Below are positions 2,693-17,379 of a stretch of DNA of 64,000 bases, piece by piece. The notes below the pieces were generated by a model. It did not search any database and was not told the DNA's origin. It saw only the letters and a program-made list of their open reading frames with translations. Numbering within the stretch: position 1 is the stretch's first letter; every line of letters starts with the position of its first letter. The stretch comes from Mycobacterium sp. E787. GTDB taxonomy: Bacteria; Actinomycetota; Actinomycetes; Mycobacteriales; Mycobacteriaceae. The translations under genes were made by a program, and so were the position numbers. The stretch lies in NCBI RefSeq assembly GCF_001668725.1, contig NZ_LZKL01000029.1, positions 16,824 to 80,823 on the forward strand. Reading direction: 5' to 3'.

Positions 2693-3091
2693 TCATCGGC
2701 CGCGCGGGTCGATCAGGTCGCGGAAGCCCGCCGCGGGATAGACGGAGGCGCCCAGCGTCGCGACCCGATCGGTCAGGCCTTTGTCCGATGTCACCACCCG
2801 GATGTCGTGCGGGCGCGCGTCGGCCCGCACCAGCCGGACGATCTGGTCGTCGGCCGAGTCCGCGGCCGGCCTGGGCGCGTAGGCGACCTCGATCACCGAC
2901 GATTCGATGGCGGTCGCCGGCGGGCGCTCGAACACCACGGTCACGCGCTCTCCTTGCCTCGCCGCCCACTGGTCGAGTTTGTCGACCAGCGCCACCATGG
3001 CGCGGCCGCGGTCCTTCCACCACCCGTCGGGGCGGCTGCCGATCACGTTCATGCCGTCGACGATCCAGCGCACAGACACACGGTAGGCCAC
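2693..3091 (-). CDS. NYN-domain (PIN-like) RNase-type protein
   Basis: A 132-residue protein with an NYN fold. It begins with the hallmark strand WIVDGMNVIGSRPDGWW carrying the first acidic residue, then VTVVFERPP, an acidic helix (SADDQIVRLV) and VVTSDKGLTDRV with the later acidic residues. The family contains metal-dependent nucleases acting on RNA. The start is ambiguous: GTG codons at 3091, 3079 and 3073 are all in frame, and 3073 (VRWIVDGMN) would be closest to the domain edge. It converges with tpx, whose stop is 26 bp away. The target RNA is unknown. Confidence 0.85.
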   Translation of the reverse strand: MAYRVSVRWIVDGMNVIGSRPDGWWKDRGRAMVALVDKLDQWAARQGERVTVVFERPPATAIESSVIEVAYAPRPAADSADDQIVRLVRADARPHDIRVVTSDKGLTDRVATLGASVYPAAGFRDLIDPRGR

Positions 3092-3107
3092 ACCGCTTGC
3101 GGGGCAA

Positions 3108-3581: not shown

Positions 3582-4766
3582 ATGACGTCGATTGCGGACA
3601 CGGACGATCGGGTGGTCGCACTGGCCCGCGGCATGCGCGACCTGGTGCGGGCCGAAGCCGTCGAGTCCGAGCGGGCGCGCACGCTCACCCCGGCGATCGT
3701 CGACGAGATGTGGGCCAGCGGGCTGATGTCCTCCTTCAATCCCGTCGCGGCCGGCGGCGTGGAGCCGTCGTTCACCGAGATGATCGAGACCTGGATCGAA
3801 ATGGCTTGGCAGGACGGATCGTTCGGGTGGATCGGCATCGCCAATCTGCCGTCCTCGTTCGCCGCCGCGGCATACCTGCCCGACGAGGGGTTCGCGGAGG
3901 TGTTCACCGCGCACGACAACCGCGTCACGCTGGGCGGGCAGTTCTTTCCCAACGGCCAGGGCAACGCGGTCGACGGCGGCTACCGGGTGACCGGGGCGTG
4001 GAACTTCGGCTCCGGCATCGGCCACTCCGAATACGTCGCGGCCGGGTTCCTACCGATGGACGACGGCGAAATGCGGTGGATCAGCGAGGGCTTTCCCGAG
4101 ATGCGCGTCGCGGTGATCCCGCGGGAGCAGATCAGCTTCGACGACGGCTGGCACGTGCAGGGCCTCAAGGGAACCGGCTCCTACGACTACAGCGCCCAGG
4201 ACGTGTTCGTGCCGTCCAGCCGCACCTTCGAGCTGTTCGTCCGCAAGCCCTACCGCGGCGCGTCGCCGGCCACCCGGATGGGGCTGATGCCGGTGACCGC
4301 CGCCGGTCATGCGTCATGGGCGCTCGGTGTCGCCAAGAGCATGCTCGACGACGTCCAGGAACTTGCCGCGACGAAGTTCCGGATGAGCGACATGGCCTCG
4401 CTGGCCAGCCGCCCCACCTTCCAGAAAGGGCTGGCGCACCACCGCGCGGCCTGGCGCGCCGCACGCCTGCTGGTGCTCGACGCGTTCACCACCGCCGAGG
4501 CCGCCGTGGCGGCCGGCGACGACCTGACCCCGGCCCTGCGCGCCGACATGCGGGTGGCCGCCGTCTATGCGACCGACACGGCCCGGGCCTGCGCCGAGTG
4601 GGCGCACCTGGTGGCGGGCACCAGCTCGATCCGCGAGGGCAGCCGCCTGGAGCGCGCCTTCCGAGACATGTACACGGGAACCCAGCACGCCTTCATCAGC
4701 GAGAAGGTGGCCATCGACGCGGCCCAGATCTGGCTGGGCATCATCGACGATCAGCCGGGGCTATAG
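3582..4766 (+). CDS. Acyl-CoA dehydrogenase-fold flavoprotein (HsaA-like monooxygenase group)
   Basis: A 394-residue flavoprotein of acyl-CoA dehydrogenase fold. It has an N-terminal helical domain, a central beta domain (VTGAWNFGSGIGHSEYVAAG; GLKGTGSYDYSAQDVFVP) and a C-terminal helical domain ending TQHAFISEKVAIDAAQIWLG. The length and the WNFGSGI and TGSYDY segments are typical of the group D flavin-dependent monooxygenases such as HsaA, rather than of true acyl-CoA dehydrogenases; the catalytic Glu of the latter is not evident. Such enzymes need a separate flavin reductase, and none lies nearby. Substrate unknown; a real dehydrogenase role cannot be excluded. Confidence 0.8.
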   Translation: MTSIADTDDRVVALARGMRDLVRAEAVESERARTLTPAIVDEMWASGLMSSFNPVAAGGVEPSFTEMIETWIEMAWQDGSFGWIGIANLPSSFAAAAYLPDEGFAEVFTAHDNRVTLGGQFFPNGQGNAVDGGYRVTGAWNFGSGIGHSEYVAAGFLPMDDGEMRWISEGFPEMRVAVIPREQISFDDGWHVQGLKGTGSYDYSAQDVFVPSSRTFELFVRKPYRGASPATRMGLMPVTAAGHASWALGVAKSMLDDVQELAATKFRMSDMASLASRPTFQKGLAHHRAAWRAARLLVLDAFTTAEAAVAAGDDLTPALRADMRVAAVYATDTARACAEWAHLVAGTSSIREGSRLERAFRDMYTGTQHAFISEKVAIDAAQIWLGIIDDQPGL

Positions 4767-5081
4767 CAGGCGCTCGCCGGATTCCGGCTCGCCCGGATTC
4801 TCGCCCTCGGTGCCGTCGCGCTCCTCGTCGACTTTCGACGCGAGCCCCGGCGCGATCTGAGCACAATGCGCAAAACCGGGTAATCGTCGCTTAATTCGAC
4901 TATCGCCCACAAGCGAGACACCCATGGTGCCGCGCCGTAACTTCGGTTCCAGCAGATAACCGAATTGACCGCACGATCGCCGCGCGAAGCCCGAAATGCA
5001 GTTCCTGCGAACAACTTTCGTCCAGTTGCTGGCGCGCCACGGCACGACATTGCGGCATGACACAGAACGGGGTCGGGGAAG
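4767..5081. other. Intergenic region upstream of the acyltransferase operon
   Basis: This 315-bp stretch lacks a convincing gene. Its main content is the first copy of the long repeat at 4858-4922. The remainder up to the ATG at 5082 contains a purine-rich ribosome-binding sequence (TCGGGGAAG) directly before the start codon. Small open frames here have no family similarity and look like chance openings in GC-rich DNA. Confidence 0.6.
4858..4922 (+). repeat. Promoter repeat, copy 1 (long form)
   Basis: Starts TGAGCACAATGCGCAAAACC and continues through AATCGTCGCT, AATTC, GACTATCGC and ACAAGCG to about 4922. It is nearly identical to 9297-9360, differing by a one-base gap and a handful of substitutions. 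It lies about 160-224 bp before the PapA-like start. A regulatory role is inferred from the matching position of copy 2 before mmpL. Confidence 0.75.
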
Positions 5082-6533
5082 ATGGTCGCACTGGGAAGCA
5101 TCAACGGGTGGCAGCCGGGCGAGGGGCCGGTCGTCACGTGGCGGGCCTCGGCCGCGGCGCGCGCGGCGGCACTCAACGCGCCGCGCAGCGACCTGGCGCC
5201 GAGTTACCAGCGGGCCCGCCACCTTCGGGCCGCCCACGACGCCGCGGGGCGGGGCGCGCAGCTGCCCCGGCTGATGGTCGTGGCGTGGGACATTCCGGGC
5301 GAATGTGACATCCCGGCGATGACGGCGACGATCAACGCGCACGTGCGCCGTCACGACGCCTACCACGACTGGTTCCAGCTCGAGGACGGCGTCATCGTCC
5401 GCCGCACGATCGCGGACCCCATGGCCATCGACCTGGTGCCCACCGAGTACGGCTACCTGGACGCCGAACAGATTCGCACGCACGCCCTGACGACAACGCC
5501 GGGGACGCTCGAGTGGGGCTGCTTCACGTTCGGCATCGTTCAGCACGCCGAGTACTTCACCTTCTACGCCAGCGTCGACCATCTGCACATCGACGGGATG
5601 TCGGCCGGCCTCATCTTCTTCGACGTCCACATGACCTACCAGCACCTGTCACAGACCGGGGCCGAGGCCGTCGCGCTCCCGCAGGTCGCGAGCTACCGCA
5701 GCTACGCCACGCGCCAGCGCGACGGACTCGCGGACCTGACGCTGTCCTCGCCGGAGGTCAAGGCCTGGATCGACTTCGCGCGCGACACCGGAGGCGAGTG
5801 GCCGACCTTCCCGCTCCCGGTCGGTGACGGGGCCGGCAACAAGGGCACCTTCGTGACGGTCGACCTGCTGGACGCCGCGGACACCGAGTCGTTCGAGATC
5901 GCCTGCCACGCGGCCGGCGCCCGGTTCAGCGGGGGAGTGCTGGCCTGCGCTGCCTTCGCGGAGCACGAGTTCACCGGCGCCGCAACGTATCACGGGTTCA
6001 CGCCGTACGACACGCGCACGCCGGGCGTCGACTCGATGACCGTGGGGTGGTTCGCCAACCTCGTCCCGGTCAGCGTGCCGATCTGCACCGCCACCTTCGC
6101 CGAGGCCGCCCGGGCGGCGCAGGACTCGTTCAACGCCGCCAAGGCCCTCGCCGACGTGCCCGTCGAGCGCGCGCTCGAGCTGGCAGCTCCGCTCGAATTG
6201 GGCATCGAACCACCCGACCACCGCGCAATGATGGTGTCCTTCATGGACTTTCGGAAGATCCCCGCCTTCAGCCTCTTCGAGGAGACCAACTGGGGCACCT
6301 ACGCCGACAACCTGTCCCACGGCGGAATCAACCTGTGGATCAACCGTCAGACCGACAAAACCACCGCCACGATCTCGTTCCCGGACAACGCGGAGGCCCG
6401 CAAGTCGGTGCACCGCTACCTGGCGGCGCTGACCCAGGCGTTCTCCTACGCCGTCAACTCCACCTCGGAGTGGACGGATGTCGTTGCGCACCACGCCAAC
6501 ACGGGCCAAGGCGTGCCCGTCATCAGCCTCTGA
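5082..6533 (+). CDS. PapA-type condensation-superfamily acyltransferase
   Basis: A 483-residue acyltransferase resembling the PapA1/PapA2/PapA3 group, which transfers polyketide or fatty acyl chains to trehalose-type glycolipids. The active-site motif is DHLHIDG (His167, Asp171, Gly172; HxxxDG). Near residue 400 the structural motif is replaced by FEETNWGTYADN, as in PapA proteins that carry NWG-like rather than DFGWG. ATG 5082 is preceded by GGGGAAG. It is the first gene of an apparent operon with two WS/DGAT-like acyltransferases (24 and 18 bp gaps), followed by an MmpL transporter. This suggests assembly and export of an acylated lipid, but no polyketide synthase or FadD is in the window, so the acyl source must be elsewhere. 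Confidence 0.85.
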   Translation: MVALGSINGWQPGEGPVVTWRASAAARAAALNAPRSDLAPSYQRARHLRAAHDAAGRGAQLPRLMVVAWDIPGECDIPAMTATINAHVRRHDAYHDWFQLEDGVIVRRTIADPMAIDLVPTEYGYLDAEQIRTHALTTTPGTLEWGCFTFGIVQHAEYFTFYASVDHLHIDGMSAGLIFFDVHMTYQHLSQTGAEAVALPQVASYRSYATRQRDGLADLTLSSPEVKAWIDFARDTGGEWPTFPLPVGDGAGNKGTFVTVDLLDAADTESFEIACHAAGARFSGGVLACAAFAEHEFTGAATYHGFTPYDTRTPGVDSMTVGWFANLVPVSVPICTATFAEAARAAQDSFNAAKALADVPVERALELAAPLELGIEPPDHRAMMVSFMDFRKIPAFSLFEETNWGTYADNLSHGGINLWINRQTDKTTATISFPDNAEARKSVHRYLAALTQAFSYAVNSTSEWTDVVAHHANTGQGVPVISL

Positions 6534-6557
6534 CAAACCCCTGAAAGGACCAAGAAA

Positions 6558-7913
6558 ATGACCAACGTACTCGACCTGTTCGACCAGACCCTCTTCCGCT
6601 TCGAGGAGGCGACCGGTGTCACCAGCGTGGGCCAGTGCGTCTGGGTGTACAACCGCGCCGTCGACCTCGACGGCCTGCGCCGGTTCCACCGGCACCTGCA
6701 GCGGGGCCGGCTGGCGCGCCGCATCGAACGCTCGCCCCTGCCGTTCGGCCGCCACCGCTGGGTCGCACCCGCCGACGAGCCCGAGCTCGAGATCGTCGCG
6801 ACGCCGCGGCCGCGCGAAGAATTCGACGCCTGGCTGCGCGAGCAGGCGGCGACCCCGCTGGATGCCGAGCGCGGACCGGGGTTCCACCTCGCGGTGCTCC
6901 CGTTCACCGACGGCGGCGCGGGCGTGAGCCTGGTCGCCCTGCACAGCCTGGCCGACGGCATGGCCGGCTGCCTGGCGGTGGTGGAAGCGGCCTGCGGCTA
7001 CGACAGCGCCATCGACTGGCCCGCGGCCGGCTCGCGCCGGCGGTGGCAGGCCCTGCGCGAGGACGCCCGCCAAACCGCGCGTGACCTGCCGGGCATCCGG
7101 CGCGCGGTGAAAGCCGCGGCGAGCGCGGCCCGACGCGCCCGGCGCGAGGGCGGCGCCGAACAGGCCGGCCCCACCGCCGCGCCGCCCACCGGCGTGGACG
7201 AGCCCATCACCATCCCCACGGCGACGGTCTTCCTCGACGCCGACGAGTGGGACGCCCGCGCCGAGGCGCTCGGGGGGACCAGCAACGCGCTGCTCGCGGG
7301 GCTGGCGGCCCGGCTCGCCCAGCGAGTGGGACGGGTTGGCGCCGACGGCTCGGTCACCCTGGCGATCCCAGTCAGCGAGCGCACCGCCGACGACACCCGC
7401 GCAAACGCCGTCGCGAACGTGGACGTCACGGTCGACCCCGCGGCCGCGGCGACCGACCTGCGGGAGATCCGCGCCGCGATCAAGCGGGCGCTGATGCACC
7501 GCCGGGAGGCGTCGGACGAGCGGGAGGCGCTGCTGCCCCTCGTTCCGCTGCTGCCCAAGCGGATCGCCAAGCGGTGCGTGGGCGTCGCCACCGGAACTGC
7601 GACCGGCGTCGTCTCCTCCAACCTCGGCGCGGCGCCCGCGGAGGTCAACCGGCCGGACGGAACCGACGCGGACTACGTCTCGGTGACCTCGCTGTACCCG
7701 GGCATGACCAAGGCGACGATGGAGCGCATCGGCGGAGTGCTGGCCCTGCTGTCGGCGCGCGTGCACGGGCAGGTCTTCATCTCCGTCCAGGCCTACCAGC
7801 CGGGACGGCAGAACTCCAAGAACGCTCTGCGGCAAGCCCTTTCGAGCGCACTGGACGACTTCTCACTCAACGCAACCAGCGGCTGGCCGGCCCCCGTAGC
7901 CGCGGCCCGATAG
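6558..7913 (+). CDS. WS/DGAT-like acyltransferase, tandem copy 1
   Basis: A 451-residue member of the condensation/WS-DGAT superfamily. The HxxxDG motif is present as LHSLADGMAG (residues about 134-143). Later come TADDTRANAVANVDVTVD and VVSSNLGAAP, which correspond to the C-terminal WS/DGAT-like subdomain with its SN-G motif. Starts ATNVLDLFDQT-type at ATG 6558, 24 bp after the PapA-like stop, preceded by GAAAGGA. It is a close paralogue of the next gene over its whole length. Likely an acyl-CoA-dependent O-acyltransferase at the membrane face; whether it makes neutral lipid or a trehalose/glycan ester cannot be told. Confidence 0.8.
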   Translation: MTNVLDLFDQTLFRFEEATGVTSVGQCVWVYNRAVDLDGLRRFHRHLQRGRLARRIERSPLPFGRHRWVAPADEPELEIVATPRPREEFDAWLREQAATPLDAERGPGFHLAVLPFTDGGAGVSLVALHSLADGMAGCLAVVEAACGYDSAIDWPAAGSRRRWQALREDARQTARDLPGIRRAVKAAASAARRARREGGAEQAGPTAAPPTGVDEPITIPTATVFLDADEWDARAEALGGTSNALLAGLAARLAQRVGRVGADGSVTLAIPVSERTADDTRANAVANVDVTVDPAAAATDLREIRAAIKRALMHRREASDEREALLPLVPLLPKRIAKRCVGVATGTATGVVSSNLGAAPAEVNRPDGTDADYVSVTSLYPGMTKATMERIGGVLALLSARVHGQVFISVQAYQPGRQNSKNALRQALSSALDDFSLNATSGWPAPVAAAR

Positions 7914-7931
7914 ACAAAGGAACTCAAGCGC

Positions 7932-9299
7932 ATGAACACCACACTCGACCTCTTCGACCAGACCTTCGCCACCCTGGAGCGAGCGACGAAAGTCCTCGGC
8001 CAGCTGCAGTGCGTCTGGGTCTACGACCGCGCGATCGACCTCGACGGCCTGCGCCGGTTCCACCGCAACCTGCGGCGGGGACGGCTGTCCCGGCGGATCG
8101 AGCGCTCGGCCCTGCCGTTCGGCCGGCATCGCTGGGTCTCCGCCGGCGGCCAGTGCGACCTCGAGATCGTCGCGACCCCGCGGCCGCGCGAGGAATTCGA
8201 CGAGTGGTTGCGCGAGCAGGCCGCGACGCCCCTGGACGTCGAGCGCGGACCCGGCTGGCACCTGGCGGTGCTGCCGTTCACCGACGGCGGCGCCGGGGTG
8301 AGCCTGGTCGTCCCGCACGCCCTCACCGACGGCATCGGGCTGTGCGACGCCCTGGCCGACGCCGCCCTGGGCCGCCACGACCCGATCAACTGGCCCGCCG
8401 CGGGCTCCCGCCGGCGGTGGCGGGCGCTGCGCGAGGACGCCCGCCAGGCCGCGCGCGACCTCCCGGACATCGGCCGCGCCTTGAAAGCCGCCGCACGACT
8501 CGCGCGGCCCGAGGACGACGGCCCGGTCCAGGCCGCCCCGCAACCGGCGTTGTCCGCCGGCCCCGACGAATCCATCACGCTGCCGACGGAAACCATCTTC
8601 GTCGGCGCCGACGAGTGGGACGCCCGCGCCGAGGCGCTCGGGGGAACAAGCAACAGCCTGCTCGCGGGCCTCGCGGCCCGGCTCGCGCGGCGCGTGGGTC
8701 GGGTGACCCCCGACGGCTCGGTCACCCTGGCGATCCCCGTCAACGAGCGCACCGCGGACGACACCCGCGCCAACGCCGTCGCCAATGTCGACATCACCGT
8801 CGACCCCGCCCGCGCCGCGACCGACCTGCGCGAGATCCGCGCCGCGACGAAGCGGGCCCTGACCCGGCGCGCAGAGGTCACCGACAACCGGCGCGAATTG
8901 CTGTCCCTCGTTCCGCTGATGCCGCAGCGGCTGGTCAGGCGGATCGTCGGGGTGGCCGCCGGCAGCCCCACCGCGGTCGTCTCCTCCAACATCGGCGTGG
9001 TCGACCCGGACGCCTATCGGCCCGACGGCACGCGGGCCGACCAGTTCGCCATCAAGGCTCCGCACCCGGACGTCAGCACGGCGATCATGGACCGGTTCGG
9101 TGGAATGTTGTCGCTGGCCTCGGGGCGGGTGAACGGCGAGGTTTTCGTCTCCGTCGTCGCGTATCAGCCGGGCCGTTCGCACTCGAATGCGGCGCTGCGG
9201 CAGGCGCTTTCGGGGGCGCTGAGCGACCTCGCGCTGACCGCCACGATCGGCTGGCCGTGCCGCGAGCCAGCGGGCGCGGCGGGGTGGTCGCGCGGGTGA
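7932..9299 (+). CDS. WS/DGAT-like acyltransferase, tandem copy 2
   Basis: A 455-residue paralogue of the preceding protein. Long shared blocks include LDGLRRFHR, ALPFGRHRWV, ATPRPREEFD, DEWDARAEALGGTSN and ERTADDTRANAVANVD. Its HxxxDG motif is intact as PHALTDGIGL, and VVSSNIGVVDP matches the C-terminal SN-G motif. The start ATG 7932 (MNTTLDLFDQTF) lies 18 bp after copy 1. Two intact active sites suggest two successive acylations or two substrate specificities rather than a decayed duplicate. The second copy of the promoter repeat overlaps its final codon and stop, so the downstream mmpL gene has its own control region. Confidence 0.8.
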   Translation: MNTTLDLFDQTFATLERATKVLGQLQCVWVYDRAIDLDGLRRFHRNLRRGRLSRRIERSALPFGRHRWVSAGGQCDLEIVATPRPREEFDEWLREQAATPLDVERGPGWHLAVLPFTDGGAGVSLVVPHALTDGIGLCDALADAALGRHDPINWPAAGSRRRWRALREDARQAARDLPDIGRALKAAARLARPEDDGPVQAAPQPALSAGPDESITLPTETIFVGADEWDARAEALGGTSNSLLAGLAARLARRVGRVTPDGSVTLAIPVNERTADDTRANAVANVDITVDPARAATDLREIRAATKRALTRRAEVTDNRRELLSLVPLMPQRLVRRIVGVAAGSPTAVVSSNIGVVDPDAYRPDGTRADQFAIKAPHPDVSTAIMDRFGGMLSLASGRVNGEVFVSVVAYQPGRSHSNAALRQALSGALSDLALTATIGWPCREPAGAAGWSRG

Positions 9300-9360
9300 G
9301 CACAATGCGCAAAACCGGGCAATCGTCGCTAATTCCGACTATCGCTGACAAGCGCGACAC
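9297..9360 (+). repeat. Promoter repeat, copy 2 (long form)
   Basis: Starts TGAGCACAATGCGCAAAACC and aligns with 4858-4922 over about 64 positions. Its first bases are the stop codon of the second WS/DGAT-like gene. It lies about 70-132 bp before the mmpL start codon at 9429. Retention of such similarity outside coding sequence implies recent duplication or selection for a binding site. Confidence 0.75.
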
Positions 9361-9428
9361 CACGCGGGCGGCGCCATAGGTTCGCGGTAACCGATAGTCA
9401 TACGCAGCCAGATGCGAAGGGTCACAAC

Positions 9429-12400
9429 ATGTTGAAGTCCGCCGTGCGAAACACCTCAGCCGCCCCCGCGACGCGCATGGGCGCGTTCCCCATGCTGGGC
9501 CGGCTCGTCGTGCGCGCGCCCTGGCTGGTCATCGCCGCCTGGGCCGCGCTGGTCGCCGTGCTGGCCGTGGCGGTCCCCCCGCTGACAAAGGTGGTCGAGG
9601 GACGGCCCCTGCAACCGCTGCCACCCGAGGCGACGGCCGCCGCCGAGCAGATGGCGAAGGATTTCGGTGAATCCGCACAGAACGTCCTGGTTGTCGTCCT
9701 GACCGACAATCGCGGCCTGCAACCCGGCGACAACGAGGTCTACAGCAAGCTGGCCGCCACCCTGCGCGGCGACACCGAGGATGTCACCGCCGTGCAGGAC
9801 GTCGTCGCCACGCCGGCGTTGCGTCCCCTGCTCGTCAGCGCGGACAACAAGGCGTTCTACCTGGCGGTGAACCTCCGCGCGCCCGCCGGGTCGCCCGAGT
9901 CGTTGCGGGCCTACCAGCGGATCACCGAGATCGCCAAGCGCTCCACCGCGGGCTCGCCGCTCACCGCCGAGATCACGGGGGAGGGCGCCCTGGCCGGCGA
10001 CCTGACGATCGTGAGCACCCGCGACGCGCACGTGATCGAGATGGTCACCATCGTGCTGGTGCTGCTCATCCTGCTGGTGATCTACCGGCGGCCGGTGACG
10101 GTGTTGGTCCCGTTGATCACGCTCGGGATTTCGGTGCTGTCGGCGCAGGGTGTGGTGTCCGGGCTGGTTGAGGTCGGTCTCGGGGTGTCGTCGCTGACGA
10201 TCGTGTTGATGACGGCCATGATCATGGGCGCCGGCACCGACTATGCCGTCTTCCTGATCAGCCGCTACCACGAGTACCTCCGCGCCGGCATCGACTCGGA
10301 CCTGGCCGTGCAAGAAGCGCTGAGCTCCATCGGCGAGGTCATCGCGGCCTCGGCCGCCACGGTCGCCGTCACCTTCCTCGGCATGGTCTTCACCCGCCTG
10401 CCCGCGTTCACGAGTATCGGTCCCGCGCTGGCGATTTCGATCGGGATCGCGTTCCTCGCCGCCGTCACGCTGTTGCCGGCCACCCTCGTGCTCGCCGGCC
10501 GGCGCGGATGGGTGGCGCCGCGAGCGGCGCTGACCGGCCGCATGTGGCAGCGGTCCGCCGTTCAGCTGGTCCGCCGACCCAAAACGCACCTGTTGGTCAG
10601 CCTTTCGCTGCTGGTCGCGCTGGCGGGCTGCGCGTTCTTCCTGCAGCCGAGCTTCGACGACCGCCTGCAGCTGCCGCAGTCGGCGCCGAGCAACGTCGGC
10701 TTTTCGACGATGGCCGCTCACTTCTCGACGAGCGCGCTACTGCCGCAATACATCTACGTCCACTCGCCGCAAGACCTGCGGAGCTCGCGGGCCCTCGCCG
10801 ACCTCGACCAGATGGCGCAACGGGTCTCGCAGCTGCCCAACATCGCTGCGGTGCGCGGCATCACGCGGCCCACCGGCCAGCCGCTCGACCAGGCCAAGCT
10901 CAGCTTCCAGGCGGGGGAGGTCGGCTCCAAGCTGCAGGACGCTTCGACGCAGATCAGCGACAAGAGCGGCGACCTCGACGCGCTGACCAACGGCGCCGAC
11001 CGACTCGCGGCCAGCCTCGCCCAGGTGCGCGACCAGATCCGCGGCGCCGGCGGACCCGTCACCCAACTCGCCGCAACCATCAACCAGGTGCAGCAGCCGC
11101 TGGCCGCGGCGGCCAACACGCTGGACAACCTGCGCGGGCTCGCGGACGGGTCGGTGTCGACACTGGTCGACGGCGTCGCCGCGGCCGCCGGCCCGATGTT
11201 CGGCGGTGTGGCCACACGCCCCTCGGTGGACGGCATTCAGGCACAGGTGCAGAACCTGACCGCACTGTTGGCGACGGCGAGCAACGGTCTGCGGACCGCC
11301 GGCAACAGCACCGCCGGCGTGCAGCAGAAGGTCGCGCAAATGCAGGCGGCCGCCGATCAGTTGGCCGACGGCAGCCGGCGGCTGGCCGACGGCGTGCGGA
11401 CGCTCGTCGACCAGACCAAGAAGATGGGGCTCGGAATGAACCAGGCCGCCGGGTATCTGCTGTCGATGAAGCGCGACGCCACGGGACCCGCCATGGCGGG
11501 CATGTACATCCCGCCCCAGGTGCTCACCTCGGCCGACTTCAAGAACGTCGCGAAGATGTTCATCTCGCCCGACGGCCATTCGGCGCGCTACCTGGTCGAG
11601 ACGAAATTCGACCCGTTCAGCGCCGCCGCGATGGATCAGGTGGCGTCGATCCTCGCCACGGCACACGGCGCGCAGCCCAACACCTCGCTTGCCGACGCCT
11701 CGATCTCGATGGTGGGCATGACGCCGATGTACAGCACGCTTCGCAGCTACTACGACGACGACTTCCGGCTGATCGTCATCATGACGCTGCTCGTTGTCTT
11801 CGCCATCCTGGTCATCCTGCTCCGGGCTCTCGTCGCGCCGCTGTATCTGATTGCCTCCGTGGCCATCTCGTATCTGTCCGCGCTCGGGCTGGGGGTCGTC
11901 TTCTTCCAGTTCGTGCTCCACCAGGCGATCTGCTGGAACGTGCAGGCGACCGCCTTCATCGTGCTGGTCGCCGTGGGCGCCGACTACAACCTGCTGTTGA
12001 TCACCCGAATTCGTGAGGAGTCGCGGTTGGGCATCCGCTCCGGCATCATCCGCGCGGTCCGTTCGACGGGTGGTGTCATCACCTCGGCCGGCATCATCTT
12101 CGCCGCCTCGATGTTCGGCCTGCTGTTCGGCAGCCTCTCGACCATGGTGCAGACCGGGTTCATCATCGGCATGGGCCTGTTGATCGACACCTTCGTGGTC
12201 CGCACGATCACGGTGCCCGCCCTGGCGGCACTGGTCGGGAAGGCGAACTGGTGGCCCGCCAAGGGGATTCGCGCCACTCGCACCCGCACCCATGCCGTGG
12301 CGCAGGCAGTGCCGGCGACCGGCGAATGCGTCCACGGTGAGCTGCCGCATGGCTTGGTCACCAGCAACATTCGCCGCTCCGCGGCGAGCCGGCGGCGGAA

Positions 12401-12500
12401 ACTGGCCCCACCCAACGCGCCGGGCGGCCGCCGCCGCGCCTGCGCCGGGGGCATCGAGCCGGCTTACCGGTCGCGACTGGCCGGCAAGGGCGCGCGCTGA
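9429..12500 (+). CDS. MmpL-family RND lipid transporter
   Basis: A 1023-residue inner-membrane exporter. The first transmembrane helix (about residues 30-50) is followed by a large periplasmic loop, five helices with GAGTDYAVFLISRYHEY (Asp271-Tyr272), a second large periplasmic loop rich in coiled-coil-like repeats (about 430-740), then the second helix bundle with VAVGADYNLLLITRIREES (Asp852-Tyr853). The two Asp-Tyr pairs are the proton-relay positions of MmpL proteins. A basic cytoplasmic tail of about 100 residues ends the protein. ATG 9429 has AAGGG upstream. No MmpS partner is present. Downstream of PapA and WS/DGAT-like genes, it most likely exports their acylated product. Confidence 0.93.
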   Translation: MLKSAVRNTSAAPATRMGAFPMLGRLVVRAPWLVIAAWAALVAVLAVAVPPLTKVVEGRPLQPLPPEATAAAEQMAKDFGESAQNVLVVVLTDNRGLQPGDNEVYSKLAATLRGDTEDVTAVQDVVATPALRPLLVSADNKAFYLAVNLRAPAGSPESLRAYQRITEIAKRSTAGSPLTAEITGEGALAGDLTIVSTRDAHVIEMVTIVLVLLILLVIYRRPVTVLVPLITLGISVLSAQGVVSGLVEVGLGVSSLTIVLMTAMIMGAGTDYAVFLISRYHEYLRAGIDSDLAVQEALSSIGEVIAASAATVAVTFLGMVFTRLPAFTSIGPALAISIGIAFLAAVTLLPATLVLAGRRGWVAPRAALTGRMWQRSAVQLVRRPKTHLLVSLSLLVALAGCAFFLQPSFDDRLQLPQSAPSNVGFSTMAAHFSTSALLPQYIYVHSPQDLRSSRALADLDQMAQRVSQLPNIAAVRGITRPTGQPLDQAKLSFQAGEVGSKLQDASTQISDKSGDLDALTNGADRLAASLAQVRDQIRGAGGPVTQLAATINQVQQPLAAAANTLDNLRGLADGSVSTLVDGVAAAAGPMFGGVATRPSVDGIQAQVQNLTALLATASNGLRTAGNSTAGVQQKVAQMQAAADQLADGSRRLADGVRTLVDQTKKMGLGMNQAAGYLLSMKRDATGPAMAGMYIPPQVLTSADFKNVAKMFISPDGHSARYLVETKFDPFSAAAMDQVASILATAHGAQPNTSLADASISMVGMTPMYSTLRSYYDDDFRLIVIMTLLVVFAILVILLRALVAPLYLIASVAISYLSALGLGVVFFQFVLHQAICWNVQATAFIVLVAVGADYNLLLITRIREESRLGIRSGIIRAVRSTGGVITSAGIIFAASMFGLLFGSLSTMVQTGFIIGMGLLIDTFVVRTITVPALAALVGKANWWPAKGIRATRTRTHAVAQAVPATGECVHGELPHGLVTSNIRRSAASRRRKLAPPNAPGGRRRACAGGIEPAYRSRLAGKGAR

Positions 12501-12519
12501 CCGCGGTCCCGGCGCGCCC

Positions 12520-12546
12520 GCGCCCACCCGTCAGCGGGGTGGGCGC
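12520..12546. terminator. Hairpin between convergent mmpL and response-regulator genes
   Basis: Perfect 10-bp inverted repeat GCGCCCACCC / GGGTGGGCGC (12520-12529 and 12537-12546) with a 7-nt loop, between the mmpL stop (12500) and extending into the end of the response-regulator gene. No T-run follows. It probably ends transcription from the mmpL side, possibly both. Confidence 0.5.
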
Positions 12547-13226
12547 GGCCGTCGCTTGTCGGCCGCGGCGAACTCCTGTTCGGGCCGGCCGGTGGTGCCG
12601 TAACGCAAGCCGACGCTGACGTCGCCCGTGGTGGCCAGGCCCGCCAAATACCGTTGGGCGGTTGCCCGCGAGATCCCGATCGCGGCGGACACCTCCGCCG
12701 CCGACATCGGCGTGTCCGAGGCGCGCAACGCCTGCAGCACAAGCTGTTTGGTGGAGGAGGCGGCAATGGTGGCGGGCGCCGGGGGAGCGACCCTGGGACG
12801 CAGCGCGTCCAGCGCCGCGTCCACGTCGCCGGAGCTCAGCTCCGGACCGGCCAGGATCTTGCGGTAGCGGGCGTAGCCGGCGAGCCGCGCGGCCAGCTCG
12901 GTGGTCGCGAACGGCTTGACGAGGTAGCTCAGCGCCCCTGCCGACATGGCCGCGCGAATGGTGGCCGCCTCGGTCGCGGCCGTCAATACCATGCTGTCGC
13001 CGGGCAATTCGCGGACCAGGTCGACCCCGGAGCCGTCGGGCAGATACACGTCGACCAGGGCGAGGTCGATGTCGGGCGCCTCGGCGAGCGCCTTGCGAGC
13101 GCCCTCGAGCGTGTTGACCGTGGCGGTCACGGTGAAGCCGGGAAGCGTGTTGACGACCTCGGCGTGCAAATTGGCGACCCGGAAGTCGTCGTCGACCACC
13201 AGCACCGTCAGGTCTGCGTCGCCCAT
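12531..13226 (-). CDS. CitB/DcuR-type response regulator
   Basis: A 231-residue response regulator. The receiver domain (about 5-125) has the acidic pocket VVDDDF, phosphoacceptor Asp59 in LALVDVYLPDGSG, the conserved Thr region VLTAATE and Lys in LVKPF. The C-terminal part (about 165-205) holds a helix-turn-helix (SAAEVSAAIGISRATAQRYL), typical of the CitB/DcuR/DpiA branch. Its start overlaps the kinase gene by 19 bp, so translation is coupled. It ends 30 bp from the mmpL stop, on the opposite strand. It is the best candidate for binding the repeats at 4858, 9297 and 14916; that link is inference. Confidence 0.92.
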   Translation of the reverse strand: MGDADLTVLVVDDDFRVANLHAEVVNTLPGFTVTATVNTLEGARKALAEAPDIDLALVDVYLPDGSGVDLVRELPGDSMVLTAATEAATIRAAMSAGALSYLVKPFATTELAARLAGYARYRKILAGPELSSGDVDAALDALRPRVAPPAPATIAASSTKQLVLQALRASDTPMSAAEVSAAIGISRATAQRYLAGLATTGDVSVGLRYGTTGRPEQEFAAADKRRPRPPR

Positions 13227-14893
13227 TGCGCCTCCTCAACCATCACGCCCGGCAGCCGGGCGATGAACTCCGCGCCCCGCAGGCGCAACTCCGCGTTGCC
13301 GGCGCTGGCCAGCGAGAGGTCGCCGCCGAGCGCGCGGGTGATCTGCCGCGACAGCGCGAGCCCGATGCCCCGCCCGCCCGGTATGCCCGAGTCGGGCTTG
13401 GTCGTGGTTCCCTCGGTGAAGAGTTGGTCGACGAAGCCGGGCGCGACGCCGTCGCCGCTGTCGGCCACCGTGATGTGCAGCGTCGTACCCTCTTGCAGCA
13501 GTTCGACTTCGACTTCTCTGACGGCGTTGCCGCTCATCCGGACCGCGTCGATGGCGTTGTCGAGCAAGTTACCGAGGACCGTGGTCACGTCGACCGGCAG
13601 GATGAGCCGGCCGGGCACCCAGGTGTTCTCACCGATGGACAGCGTCACGCCGGCCTCGCGGGCGGCCGCGCCCTTGGCCGCCAGGAACGCCTGCAGGTAC
13701 GCGTCGCGGATGGCATCGATACCGGGCAGCGCGGATCCCAGCGGCCCCGACCCCAGCAGCTCCTCCAGATATTGCAGACCCTCGTCGACGTGACCGCCGT
13801 GCAACAGGCCGGTCAGCAGGTGCAGGCGGTTGGCGAATTCGTGGCGCTGGGCGCGCAACACCGTGCTCATCACCTGCACCGCGTCGAGCTGGCGGGTCAG
13901 CGACTCCACATCGGTGCGGTCCCGGACCACCAAAACCGTTCCCAGCTGGCGTCCTTCGCGTGCTACCGACCGCGCCGAGACCACGACGATGCGCTCGCCC
14001 ACCGTCGCCAGACTCGGCGTCGCGTCCGCGGCCCGGAACACGTCGAGCACCCGCGGTGTCAGGCCGATCTCGTCGATGGGCCGGCCCGGTTCGGCGCCGA
14101 TCTCGAGCAGCCGGCACGCCTCGTCGTTGACGAAGGTGGTCTTCCCGGCCGTGTCGGTCGCCAGCACACCCTCCCCGATGCCCTCCAGCACCGCCGCCTG
14201 ACTGCGCACGAGTTCGGTGATCTCGGCGGGCCGCAACCCGAGCGTCAGGCCTCGCCAGCGGCGGGCCAGCGCGGCCGAGCCGGCGCCGCCGATCAGGAGC
14301 GCCACGCCTCCCAGGGCGGCCAGCACTCGCAGGTTCTTCGAGAACTGATCATCGAAAGACTTCGTGGAGATTCCGACGATGACCACGCCCAGAACGCGGT
14401 TCGAAACGGGTTCCAGCACCGGGACTTTGGCGACGATCGCGCGCCCGAAAACCGTCGAGTCGTGCGACACCATCTCGTGCCCGGCGACCGGCTGGGCGAT
14501 GTCCGCTTGAATATGGGCTCCCAACCTCTTGCGGTCGGGATCCGCGAGCCTGACGCCGTGCGTGCTACCGATCACCACGAACTGCACATGCGTGCGCTGC
14601 TCGACACGCGACGCGACGCTCTGGATCGGACCGGTCGCCAGCTCGGCGGTCAGTGCGGGGCTTGCCGTCAGGGCGGGATCGTCGTAGCGGGCGATGTTGT
14701 TGATGACGGTCGGCGACGAGGCCACCACACGAGCGATATCCAGCGCGTGGACGTGGTATTGGCTGTCCAGGCGCTGCCGGTTGAACCATGCGAACATCCC
14801 GAAGGCGACGATCAGCGTGAGCGTCACGATGACGAGCTGCAGCAGCATCACCTGGGTGGCGAGCCGCAAGTCGATGCGACCCCGGGCGGCCAT
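13208..14893 (-). CDS. CitA/DcuS-type sensor histidine kinase
   Basis: A 561-residue membrane kinase. Transmembrane helix 1 (about 13-33) is followed by an extracytoplasmic PAS-like sensor (about 40-185, with QFVVIGSTHGVRLADPDR), transmembrane helix 2 (about 190-210), a cytoplasmic PAS (about 230-330) and the dimerisation box LRAQRHEFANRLHLLTGLL carrying the phospho-His. The HATPase part has GNLLDNAIDAVR and GGRGIGLALSR. These are hallmarks of carboxylate or metabolite sensors of the CitA/DcuS family. ATG 14893 was chosen because the upstream extension runs through repeat copy 3. It forms an operon with the regulator. Confidence 0.92.
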   Translation of the reverse strand: MAARGRIDLRLATQVMLLQLVIVTLTLIVAFGMFAWFNRQRLDSQYHVHALDIARVVASSPTVINNIARYDDPALTASPALTAELATGPIQSVASRVEQRTHVQFVVIGSTHGVRLADPDRKRLGAHIQADIAQPVAGHEMVSHDSTVFGRAIVAKVPVLEPVSNRVLGVVIVGISTKSFDDQFSKNLRVLAALGGVALLIGGAGSAALARRWRGLTLGLRPAEITELVRSQAAVLEGIGEGVLATDTAGKTTFVNDEACRLLEIGAEPGRPIDEIGLTPRVLDVFRAADATPSLATVGERIVVVSARSVAREGRQLGTVLVVRDRTDVESLTRQLDAVQVMSTVLRAQRHEFANRLHLLTGLLHGGHVDEGLQYLEELLGSGPLGSALPGIDAIRDAYLQAFLAAKGAAAREAGVTLSIGENTWVPGRLILPVDVTTVLGNLLDNAIDAVRMSGNAVREVEVELLQEGTTLHITVADSGDGVAPGFVDQLFTEGTTTKPDSGIPGGRGIGLALSRQITRALGGDLSLASAGNAELRLRGAEFIARLPGVMVEEAQWATQT

Positions 14894-14915
14894 GCGAAAG
14901 ACAGTACCGCGCGAG

Positions 14916-14944
14916 TGAGCACAATGCGCGAAAGTCGGGGATCG
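14916..14944 (+). repeat. Promoter repeat, copy 3 (short form)
   Basis: TGAGCACAATGCGCGAAAGT followed by CGGGGATCG. The first 14 bases are identical to copies 1 and 2 and the next 15 are similar. It lies in the 108-bp divergent region between the kinase (start 14893, minus) and the epimerase (start 15002, plus), so it may serve either gene. Confidence 0.65.
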
Positions 14945-15001
14945 CGCCAGCCGCACGGGGATCCGGCGGTGCGGGCGGGTGGCAGCGCCTACTATCAGCG
15001 C

Positions 15002-15901
15002 ATGCGCGGCTCAAAGATCCTGATCACCGGTCCGACCGGTCAACTTGCCACCCCCATCGCCCTGGCGCTGGCGGCCGACAACGAGGTGTGGGGCATCGCG
15101 CGTTTCAGCGATCCCGCCGCACGAGAAGGCCTCGAGCAGGCCGGGATCCGGTGCCAGGCGGTCGACCTGGCGGCCGGCGACTTCACCGGTGTGCCGGATG
15201 ACTTCGACTACGTCCTCAACCTGGCGGTGGCCAAGAGTGGGAATTGGGACAAAGACCTCGCCGCCAACGCGGAGTCGGTCGGCCTGCTGATGGCCCACTG
15301 CCGCGCCGCGAAGGCCTTCCTGCACTGCTCCTCGGCGGCGGTGTACGACCCGCCCGGCGACGAGGCCCGGGCCGAGGGGGCCGCCCTGGGCGACAACCAC
15401 AAGTTCCTGTTCCCCACGTATTCGATCTCCAAGATCGCCGGGGAGGTCGTCGCCCGGGCGATGGCGCGCATCCTCGACGTCCCGACCACCATCGCCCGCC
15501 TCAACGTGCCCTATGGCAACAACGGCGGCTGGCCCTACTACCACATGGAGATGATGCTGGCCGGCATCCCGATCCCGGTCCCGCCCGGCGGACCCGCGCT
15601 GTACAACCCGATCCACGAGGACGACATCATCGCCACCGTGCCCAAGCTGCTCGAGGCCGCGGCGGTTCCGGCGACGACGGTCAACTGGTGCGGCGACCAG
15701 GCGGTCAGCCTCCAGGACTGGTGCGGCTACCTCGGCTCGCTGGTCGGCAAGGAGCCGATCTTCGAGGAGAACGCCCACGCGCTGCGGGGCAACCCCACCG
15801 ACGGGGCGCGGATGCACGAGCTCATCGGCGGCACGACGGTCGACTGGCAGGACGGGTTGCGCCGCATGGCGGCGAAGTTCCACCCGGAGCTGGTCGGCTA
15901 A
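15002..15901 (+). CDS. NAD(P)-dependent epimerase/dehydratase (extended SDR)
   Basis: A 299-residue extended short-chain dehydrogenase/reductase. The cofactor loop is ITGPTGQLATP (GxxGxxA), followed by CSSAAVY and the catalytic pair YSISK. The C-terminal half carries substrate-binding segments including ARLNVPYGNNGGWPYYHMEM and a WCGD motif. The family reduces, epimerises or dehydrates nucleotide sugars or related carbonyl compounds. ATG 15002 is the natural family start. Position beside the kinase and repeat copy 3 suggests it may belong to the lipid-locus regulon, for example modifying the carrier sugar, but this is inference. Confidence 0.85.
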   Translation: MRGSKILITGPTGQLATPIALALAADNEVWGIARFSDPAAREGLEQAGIRCQAVDLAAGDFTGVPDDFDYVLNLAVAKSGNWDKDLAANAESVGLLMAHCRAAKAFLHCSSAAVYDPPGDEARAEGAALGDNHKFLFPTYSISKIAGEVVARAMARILDVPTTIARLNVPYGNNGGWPYYHMEMMLAGIPIPVPPGGPALYNPIHEDDIIATVPKLLEAAAVPATTVNWCGDQAVSLQDWCGYLGSLVGKEPIFEENAHALRGNPTDGARMHELIGGTTVDWQDGLRRMAAKFHPELVG

Positions 15902-15905
15902 CTCC

Positions 15906-16478
15906 TTACCGCGCAACGGGTTTGACGATGCGCGCCGCCGCTTCGACGGCGGCGGCGCGGCGGGCGGCGACAACCTTGGCGTCCGTGGTCAAGGCGGCGG
16001 GGTCGGGCCAATGCGCCCAACCCAGGCCGATCGCGAACAGCAGCACCAGCAGCTGCTCCGGTTCCCATACGGGATCGACGTGGCCGTCGGCCTGCGCCTG
16101 CCGCAGCGCGGCGATGGCCGCCTCGGGTGGGTGTTCGCCGTCGAACTCGGGCTTGTCGAGCGGAAACCCTTCCAACTGCGCCCACGTGATCATCCGGATG
16201 TGTTCGGGTCGGCTCTGCGCCAAATCGAAGATGCCGCCGACGAACTCGGGCACCTCATCGGGGCGCAGCTCGACGGCGCGGAAGAACTCCGCGCCATCGG
16301 CGGCGACCACGTCGCGGAAGAGGGTCTCCTTGTCGCCGAAATGCGCGTACAACCTTTCCTTGCTCGCGTTGGCGCTGCGCGCGATGCGGTCGATGCGCGC
16401 CCCGGCCAGGCCGTATTGAGCGAACTCCGCGCGGGCGGAGGCGAGTATCTCGCCGCGGAGCTCGGTCTTCGTTCTCAT
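15906..16478 (-). CDS. TetR-family regulator
   Basis: A 190-residue TetR regulator. The N-terminal DNA-binding domain reads RGEILASARAEFAQYG, then ARIDRIARSANASKERLYAHFGDKETLF, the classical TetR helix-turn-helix. The ligand domain has a TetR_C-type helical pattern (FDLAQSRPEHIRMITWAQLE). ATG 16478 was preferred, with ATG 16490 possible. A perfect 14-bp palindrome lies at 16497-16510, just upstream, and is probably its own operator. The gene diverges from a methyltransferase-acyltransferase pair it may repress. Confidence 0.9.
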   Translation of the reverse strand: MRTKTELRGEILASARAEFAQYGLAGARIDRIARSANASKERLYAHFGDKETLFRDVVAADGAEFFRAVELRPDEVPEFVGGIFDLAQSRPEHIRMITWAQLEGFPLDKPEFDGEHPPEAAIAALRQAQADGHVDPVWEPEQLLVLLFAIGLGWAHWPDPAALTTDAKVVAARRAAAVEAAARIVKPVAR

Positions 16479-16496
16479 GAGGAACATCATAGTCAG

Positions 16497-16510
16497 ACGA
16501 ACTAGTTCGT
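16497..16510. promoter_or_regulatory. Palindromic operator, probably for the adjacent TetR
   Basis: ACGAACTAGTTCGT is a perfect 14-bp palindrome, and the symmetry continues for two of the next three base pairs on each side. It lies between the TetR start (16478/16490) and the divergent methyltransferase (16567), the standard position for an autoregulatory TetR operator. Confidence 0.75.
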
Positions 16511-16566
16511 TTGTTATAGTGGTCTCACGCGGCAGGCGCCGTGGCGGATGAAAAGGAGACGACCTG

Positions 16567-17379
16567 ATGGCTATAACCGGCGCTCTCGACCGGGCCATTG
16601 CGACGATGCCCAGGGGCGGTCCCGACGCGTCGTGGTTGGACCGTCGATTCGAGACGGATGCGCTGGAGTACCTCGACCGCGACGACGTTGCGGACGAGGT
16701 CAAACAGAAGGTCATCGGCATGCTGGATCGGCTCGGCACCCTGACCGGTCAGCATGAGAGGTACGCCCGGACGGCGCTCGACGTCGTCGCCGACATCCCC
16801 AATCCGCGCATCCTGGAGCTCGGCGCCGGGCACGGAAAGCTCTCGGCGCAAATCCTCGGGCTTCATCCGACCGCGACGGTCACCGTCAGCGACGTGAACC
16901 CGAACTCGGTCGCCAACATCGCGGCGGGGGAGTTAGGCAACCACCCGCGGGCTCGCACCCAGGTGGTCGACGCCACGGCGATCGACGCCGCCGACGACAG
17001 CTACGACCTCGTCGTGTTCGCACTCGCGTTCCATCACCTCCCGCCGGTGGTGGCCTGTCGCGCCATCGCCGAGGCCACCCGCGTCGGCAAGCGGTTTCTG
17101 GTGATCGACCTCAAACGGCGGCACCCGTTGGCGACGATGCTGTTTCCGGTCTTCGCCCTGCCGGTGCACCTGGCGCTGGTGCCGTGGTCGTGGATTCAGC
17201 CGGGCCTGCACGACGGGTTCATCAGCGCGCTGCGCGCCTACAGCCCGTCGGCACTGAAAGCCCTTGGGCGCGCCGCCGATCCGGACATGATGGTCGAGAC
17301 GCTGTCCAGCCCGACCCGGCTCGGCCCGCCCGTGCTCACCGTGGTGTTCTCCCGCCCGCAAGGGCGCGACCGTGGCTGA
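16567..17379 (+). CDS. Class I SAM-dependent methyltransferase
   Basis: A 270-residue methyltransferase. Motif I is ILELGAGHGKLS (about 80-91), followed by acidic VTVSDVNPNSV, VVDATAIDAADDSYDLVVFALAFHHLPP and a later VIDLKRRHP. A hydrophobic segment near residues 180-200 (MLFPVFALPVHLALVPW) suggests membrane association. ATG 16567 has AGGAGA upstream. It overlaps the acyltransferase gene by 8 bp, so the two form an operon. Substrate probably a lipid, from the partner and hydrophobic segment; not proven. Confidence 0.88.
   Translation: MAITGALDRAIATMPRGGPDASWLDRRFETDALEYLDRDDVADEVKQKVIGMLDRLGTLTGQHERYARTALDVVADIPNPRILELGAGHGKLSAQILGLHPTATVTVSDVNPNSVANIAAGELGNHPRARTQVVDATAIDAADDSYDLVVFALAFHHLPPVVACRAIAEATRVGKRFLVIDLKRRHPLATMLFPVFALPVHLALVPWSWIQPGLHDGFISALRAYSPSALKALGRAADPDMMVETLSSPTRLGPPVLTVVFSRPQGRDRG

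Follow-up and report, generated by a model that had tools for sequence, protein, structure and literature searches.

The locus and the repeat

This study concerns a short repeat, TGAGCACAATGCGC, which occurs in a 64,000-nucleotide stretch of DNA from Mycobacterium sp. E787 (hereafter "the window", meaning the whole stretch analysed) beside genes for a PapA-type acyltransferase, an MmpL transporter and a two-component system of the CitA/CitB type. Exact copies lie at 4858, 9297 and 14916, all on the + strand, as a preliminary description of this DNA had reported, and we find that the repeat is one half (box A) of a longer element, whose second box (box B) and promoter accompany it at sites 1 and 2 and not at site 3. 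The features of the locus are the following (HTH, helix-turn-helix).

3582-4766: acyl-CoA dehydrogenase-like gene
4858..4943, + strand: papA composite operator and promoter, with box A at 4859-4875, box B (ACAAGCG) at 4909-4915, -35-like GAGACA at 4915-4920, -10-like TAACTT at 4938-4943 and a predicted transcript start near 4950
5082..6533, + strand: PapA-type acyltransferase gene (papA); PF00668; closest solved protein PapA2 (6aef), E 8.5e-120, 404 bits
6558..7913, + strand: wes1, acyltransferase-like, labelled from an HxxxDG motif read by eye; no family match
7932..9299, + strand: wes2, paralogue of wes1; no family match
9297..9382, + strand: mmpL composite operator and promoter, with box A at 9298-9314, box B at 9348-9354, -35-like GCGACA at 9354-9359, -10-like TAGGTT at 9377-9382 and a predicted transcript start near 9389
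9429..12500, + strand: MmpL transporter gene; PF03176, E 2.6e-159
12531..13226, - strand: CitB/DcuR-type response regulator gene, its product the likely operator binder; PF00072 and IclR-type HTH
13208..14893, - strand: CitA/DcuS-type sensor histidine kinase gene; sCache_3_2, SPOB_a, HATPase_c
14901..14906, - strand: TACTGT, the -10-like hexamer of the kinase promoter, 7 bases upstream of the ATG; transcript predicted to be leaderless
14917..14933: box A alone, reading GAGCACAATGCGCGAAA on the + strand, over the -35 region of the kinase promoter and at a constant distance from the kinase start
15002..15901, + strand: NAD-dependent epimerase-like gene, divergent from the kinase; PF01370

Site 1 is intergenic, upstream of papA; the start of site 2 overlaps the TGA at 9297-9299, which is the stop codon of wes2; and site 3 begins 23 bases upstream of the kinase ATG (14893, minus strand). 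The copies thus lie outside genes or at their edge, as had been claimed, and their placement before papA, before mmpL and in the gap between kinase and epimerase also stands, with the correction that site 3 is positioned for the minus-strand kinase and not for the epimerase. Sites 1 and 2 are identical at 58 of 66 ungapped positions (89% over 65 bases by BLAST), which bears out the near identity of about 65 bp noticed earlier.

It is the exact copies that constitute the evidence, the count of window matches to TGAGCACAATGCGC at up to three mismatches (4 seen, 7.6 expected from shuffling) being uninformative. In the whole genome (5,724,741 bases in 133 contigs) there are four exact copies of TGAGCACAATGCGC and none of its reversed sequence. 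The 17-base form GAGCACAATGCGCAAAA gives three exact matches and two with one mismatch, then nothing at two mismatches and five matches at three; its reversed control gives three matches at up to three mismatches. The five sites with at most one mismatch are the three window copies and two others that share one contig (C84): C84:17558, upstream of an alpha/beta-hydrolase gene (abh) and 75% identical to site 1 over 57 bases (BLAST, E 0.0027), and C84:18943 (site 5, also L013:10944-10960), which has one mismatch, is not followed by box B, stands upstream of a Ser/Thr-kinase gene and is possibly a decayed or false site. With five sites, this is not a repeat scattered in many copies over the genome. 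The region after site 5 is tRNA-like in look, and a tRNA search of it found none.

A second box and a conserved promoter-like sequence

A scan based on the kinase returned 41 loci, including those of M. paraense, M. colombiense, M. gordonae, M. asiaticum, M. szulgai, Mycolicibacterium stellerae, Antrihabitans and actinomycete assemblies; among these, the closest to the window kinase are Mycobacterium sp. E3198 and M. paraense (93-95%). The motif is present at up to three mismatches in 39 of the 41 and missing from L054 and L060, both shorter than 5 kb, and the sites are kept beside the orthologous papA, mmpL and kinase genes.

When sites are aligned, box A is followed at 49-51 bases by ACAAGCG (box B), then by a conserved GCGACA and then by TANNTT; in a loose alignment of 136 sites, 101 have this TANNTT at 29-30 bases, counted from the beginning of box B. 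A loose test, which asked for 5 of 7 box B bases at an offset of 42-57, accepted 136 of 160 sites, and was replaced by a strict one because its control reached 63 of 160. The strict test (6 of 7 bases at offset 49-51) was applied to 168 distinct sites with at most two mismatches, 46 of them at kinase promoters and 122 elsewhere: box B is present in 104 of the 122 non-kinase sites, and box B together with a TANNNT -10 in 98, while eight control windows scored 0, 0, 1, 0, 0, 10, 0 and 0. Kinase sites had been sorted first by a regular expression (42 kinase and 118 other sites of 160) and then by tblastn placement of the kinase with more loci (46 and 122 of 168), and the box B count is 104 under both sortings. 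Judged by eye, the score of 10 seems to come from an ACAAGCAC in PE-gene promoters of one clade. We had also considered GACTAT (4898-4903) as the -10, and dropped it: the position of TANNTT is conserved, and box B would then overlie the transcript start.

The kinase promoter

Kinase promoters were compared in 62 sequences (the window, the 41 loci and 20 further stretches), 54 of which have a usable kinase start; the others were left out for an unaligned kinase N-terminus (L049, L059, L060, L108), for want of upstream DNA (L054) or with no kinase found (L112, L123, L124). Box A, at up to three mismatches, is kept in 47 of the 54. In 42 of these 47 it lies 22-24 bases from the start codon, and in 46 a TANNNT stands between the two. 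Three of the seven misses, L120-L122, have kinases only 43-44% identical; the other four are weighed below.

We assign site 3 to the minus-strand kinase promoter because the distance from box A to the kinase start is nearly constant across relatives. The distance to the epimerase varies, so that the epimerase is probably not a main target, and a Class I activation of this gene from site 3, which we had entertained, was dropped on the same comparison. Box B is found at nine of the 46 kinase sites, with a -10 in all nine; behind it, in the opposite direction to the kinase, lie papA in L064 and an ATP-binding cassette (ABC) transporter gene in L114, an arrangement in which a single box A appears to act both ways.

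Association with the two-component system

In 248 genomes of the genus, we recorded the motif (a site with at most one mismatch) and an orthologue of the response regulator (at least about 50% identity, with the hits of 195 bits or more picked out by hand). The motif is found in 55 genomes (143 sites; reversed-motif control 0/248) and the regulator in 63; both occur together in 45, the regulator only in 18, the motif only in 10 and neither in 175. The Fisher p value of 4.5e-25 is uncorrected for kinship, and is too small because the sites are related by descent.

Sites with two or three mismatches lie near the kinase, regulator or papA gene in 14 of the 18 regulator-only genomes (one of them, L112, without a detected kinase). 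Of the other four, L108 ends at a contig edge, and L120-L122 (regulator 50-51% identical) have no site at the kinase, L121 and L122 having three-mismatch matches about 1.5 kb away. In two genomes, G112 and G215 (L123, L124), there is a second regulator (67-69% identity) next to which no matching kinase was found. Three of the ten motif-only genomes are 70-90% complete, and a regulator search of the ten at E 1e-12 found only regulators of 38-40% identity, in two. Six of the ten were inspected by locus (all except G003, G008, G166 and G239). In L094, box A adjoins an epimerase fragment; L086 has a match without box B and, at a distance of 174 bases, a further match with three mismatches and a degenerate box B behind it, and the second site of the same genome (L144) is also without box B; at the L087 match there is no operator. 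The other three loci are taken up with the alternatives.

A search with the motif alone (GAGCASAATGCGCAAAA, one mismatch) covered 178 genomes of the order from outside the genus and 22 from within it, 200 in all. Outside the genus, seven of the 178 genomes have a match (reversed control 1/178), and at five of these seven loci (L169, L170, L173, L174, L175) a kinase homologue of 34-47% identity stands beside the motif. Four of these five genomes also encode a CitB-type regulator (42-48% identity) on that contig, at most about 2.5 kb away; L168 and L172 have neither kinase nor CitB-type regulator. The motif by itself thus leads to CitA/CitB systems, an outcome not expected if some other kind of regulator read it, and its presence beside such distant kinases suggests that paralogous CitB-type regulators may read similar sites.

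Probable target genes in relatives

Gene maps of relatives show copies upstream of papA, mmpL and further wes-type genes, and of abh in L048. We took 40 of the 143 genus sites as longer stretches, in which the downstream genes include abh (8 of 40), papA, mmpL, transporters of the major facilitator superfamily (MFS) type, PrpF-like proteins and PE-like proteins. Family searches, in which the NCBIfam scores lie below the curated cut-offs, point to a DctA-type dicarboxylate symporter in L153 (PF00375; here box B is too degenerate to pass the strict test), a metabolite/H+ symporter in L129 and L137, a 4-oxalomesaconate-tautomerase-like protein in L130, an aromatic-acid-symporter-like protein in L046, a PE protein in L128 (PF00934) and an ABC transporter in L114. 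Genes of this carboxylate type (DctA-type, metabolite/H+ symporter, tautomerase-like) follow the operator in relatives, and none does so at the window sites. In a census of 113 distinct composite sites, which is biased towards kinase-linked loci, the first recognised downstream gene is papA in 23, PE in 18, mmpL in 17, abh in 11, wes in 8, an aromatic-acid-type MFS gene in 7, ABC in 7, a metabolite/H+ symporter in 5, an unnamed group in 3, the tautomerase in 2, another MFS gene in 1, and other or none in 11.

Some arrangements deserve mention in their own right. A small PE-type protein gene follows the composite operator in L128, and by eye also in L165, L063 and L081. In the M. colombiense-like loci L026, L029, L030, L032 and L033, three to four wes-type genes stand in a row, with extra operators before some of them. 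In L048, back-to-back divergent operator pairs occur at 3037-3107 and 8784-8879; papA and mmpL flank one pair, abh and an MFS-type gene the other.

The genes of the locus

The PapA protein has the condensation-type fold (PF00668) and the similarity to PapA2 expected of its family, acyl transfer to a trehalose lipid being at most putative; the genome encodes three further PapA paralogues, with 40-43% identity. MmpL contains MMPL domains and scores 833.7 bits against TIGR00833, below its cut-off of 874.7. The Wes1 and Wes2 proteins have no match in Pfam (even at E 10) or in NCBIfam; being paralogous proteins of 451 and 455 amino acids with an HxxxDG-like motif seen by eye, they look like an undescribed acyltransferase-like family.

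The response regulator combines a receiver domain (PF00072) with a CitB-type HTH (HTH_IclR); the DcuR and DpiA models cover most of it with scores below the curated cut-offs, DcuR being the best NCBIfam model with an HTH (109 bits, cut-off 262). The end of its HTH helix and the following GRPEQEF are nearly invariant in 58 sequences. The kinase has a periplasmic sCache domain, a PAS domain (PAS_8, below cut-off), SPOB_a and HATPase; it scores 274.8 bits against the DcuS/MalK model (cut-off 520) and matches the solved CitA sensor and DcuS PAS domains. Its residue R115, present in 51 of 52 kinases, aligns with the arginine replaced by alanine in the solved structure 8biy, the sole pocket residue compared. 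This arginine we take to be a ligand-binding residue.

Interpretation and alternatives

We think it quite likely, from the arrangement and conservation of the sites, that the repeat forms box A of an operator with two boxes, to which the neighbouring CitB-type regulator binds; this regulator would activate papA-wes1-wes2, mmpL and the unlinked hydrolase gene and would control the kinase promoter. The earlier suggestion of an operator shared by these genes and read by one regulator, most likely the adjacent CitB-type protein, appears well supported by the rarity of the sites, their conservation and their co-occurrence with the regulator. The regulon can no longer be called self-contained: the hydrolase gene on C84 would be an unlinked member, and the operators of relatives precede dicarboxylate-, metabolite/H+- and aromatic-acid-type transporters and PE proteins.

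In the mechanism that we propose, an extracellular ligand of the carboxylate type would bind the sCache domain, and the kinase would then phosphorylate the regulator. A carboxylate or related organic acid is inferred as the signal from the sensor family, from the transporter targets in relatives and from the conservation of R115 with its presumed role. Regulator dimers would occupy both boxes, which lie, relative to the predicted papA start, at about -91 to -75 (box A) and about -41 to -35 (box B); from the latter, adjacent to the -35, the regulator would contact RNA polymerase in the manner of a class II activator. The kinase promoter would be autoregulated through box A, more likely by repression than by activation; negative autoregulation is suggested because box A covers the kinase -35 region.

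Several observations weigh against this interpretation. Sites 3 and 5 are without box B; one control window of the strict test scored 10; and the sites share descent, so that the counts are not independent. Four loci (L025, L040, L051 and L052) have kinases 66-95% identical to that of the window and no recognisable box A. Ten of the 55 motif-bearing genomes are without an orthologous regulator, and three of the six inspected (L076, L080 and L081) contain complete composite operators, which may be relics, may reflect assembly gaps or may be read by a paralogous CitB-type regulator.

These ten genomes are what could be said for another regulator, either a TetR or AraC protein encoded close by or a factor from an unlinked gene, that would bind the operator and have the two-component genes merely as one target. 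We consider this very unlikely, since the gene maps of many operator-bearing loci show no TetR or AraC neighbour, since motif and regulator occur together in the genus, and since CitA-type kinases accompany five of the seven motif-only matches outside it. A less remote alternative, and still an unlikely one, keeps the same regulator and operator and supposes that papA, wes, mmpL and abh are repressed, the signal relieving the repression. The direction of control cannot be read from a sequence, and box A does cover the -35 at the kinase gene; however, the layout at the other targets is that of an activator, with box B ending at the -35 and box A far upstream, and in the relative Corynebacterium glutamicum CitB activates its targets, according to a 2012 review (PMC3353115). 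That the element is a dispersed repeat, a mobile element, an RNA element or a recent duplication without regulatory meaning might be suspected from the near identity of sites 1 and 2 over 65 bases, but we can hardly credit it: there are only five copies, an Rfam search of 4700-15100 gave no match to an RNA family, box A precedes the predicted start of transcription, and both the fixed distances to start codons and promoters and the conservation across species contradict it.

Relation to known systems and significance

The nearest studied system is CitAB of C. glutamicum (CitA/CitB, of the DcuS/DcuR family), with which the locus shares an sCache sensor kinase and a CitB-type regulator, and the operator of relatives precedes transporters of the dicarboxylate or organic-acid type. 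In C. glutamicum, CitB activates citrate transport genes, and the available text of the review lists no autoregulation; in the window, by contrast, the operator would serve papA, wes and mmpL, and box A is also present at the kinase promoter. The locus also resembles the PapA2-type loci for sulfolipid and its relatives, its PapA being closest to PapA2 and accompanied by an MmpL gene, but there is no polyketide synthase among the ten genes searched (3582 to 17379), and here two neighbouring proteins without family and an own two-component system are present. A search of the open-licence literature in PubMed Central (PMC), by title and start of abstract, returned no paper on the operator or on CitAB-type control of a mycobacterial PapA/MmpL locus, which is weak evidence of absence; the motif string was not found in that literature either. 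The CitA/CitB family is known; within it, the operator appears to be new and the regulon a rewired one.

We tentatively put forward that a CitA/CitB system sensing carboxylates or aromatic acids has been rewired, by the spread of a 62-base composite operator, from nutrient uptake to the acylation and export of a cell-surface lipid. An outside organic acid would then lead slow-growing mycobacteria to remodel their envelope, and the operator might be the missing recognition code of CitB-type regulators in the order. It offers a testable recognition sequence for an actinobacterial regulator of the CitB family, a family whose C. glutamicum member had, according to the 2012 review (PMC3353115), no exactly identified motif at that time. 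It also points to a likely class of signal for a PapA/MmpL lipid locus of which we found no description in the open-licence literature, and, with one operator upstream of very different targets within a genus, it provides a clear case for the study of regulon turnover.

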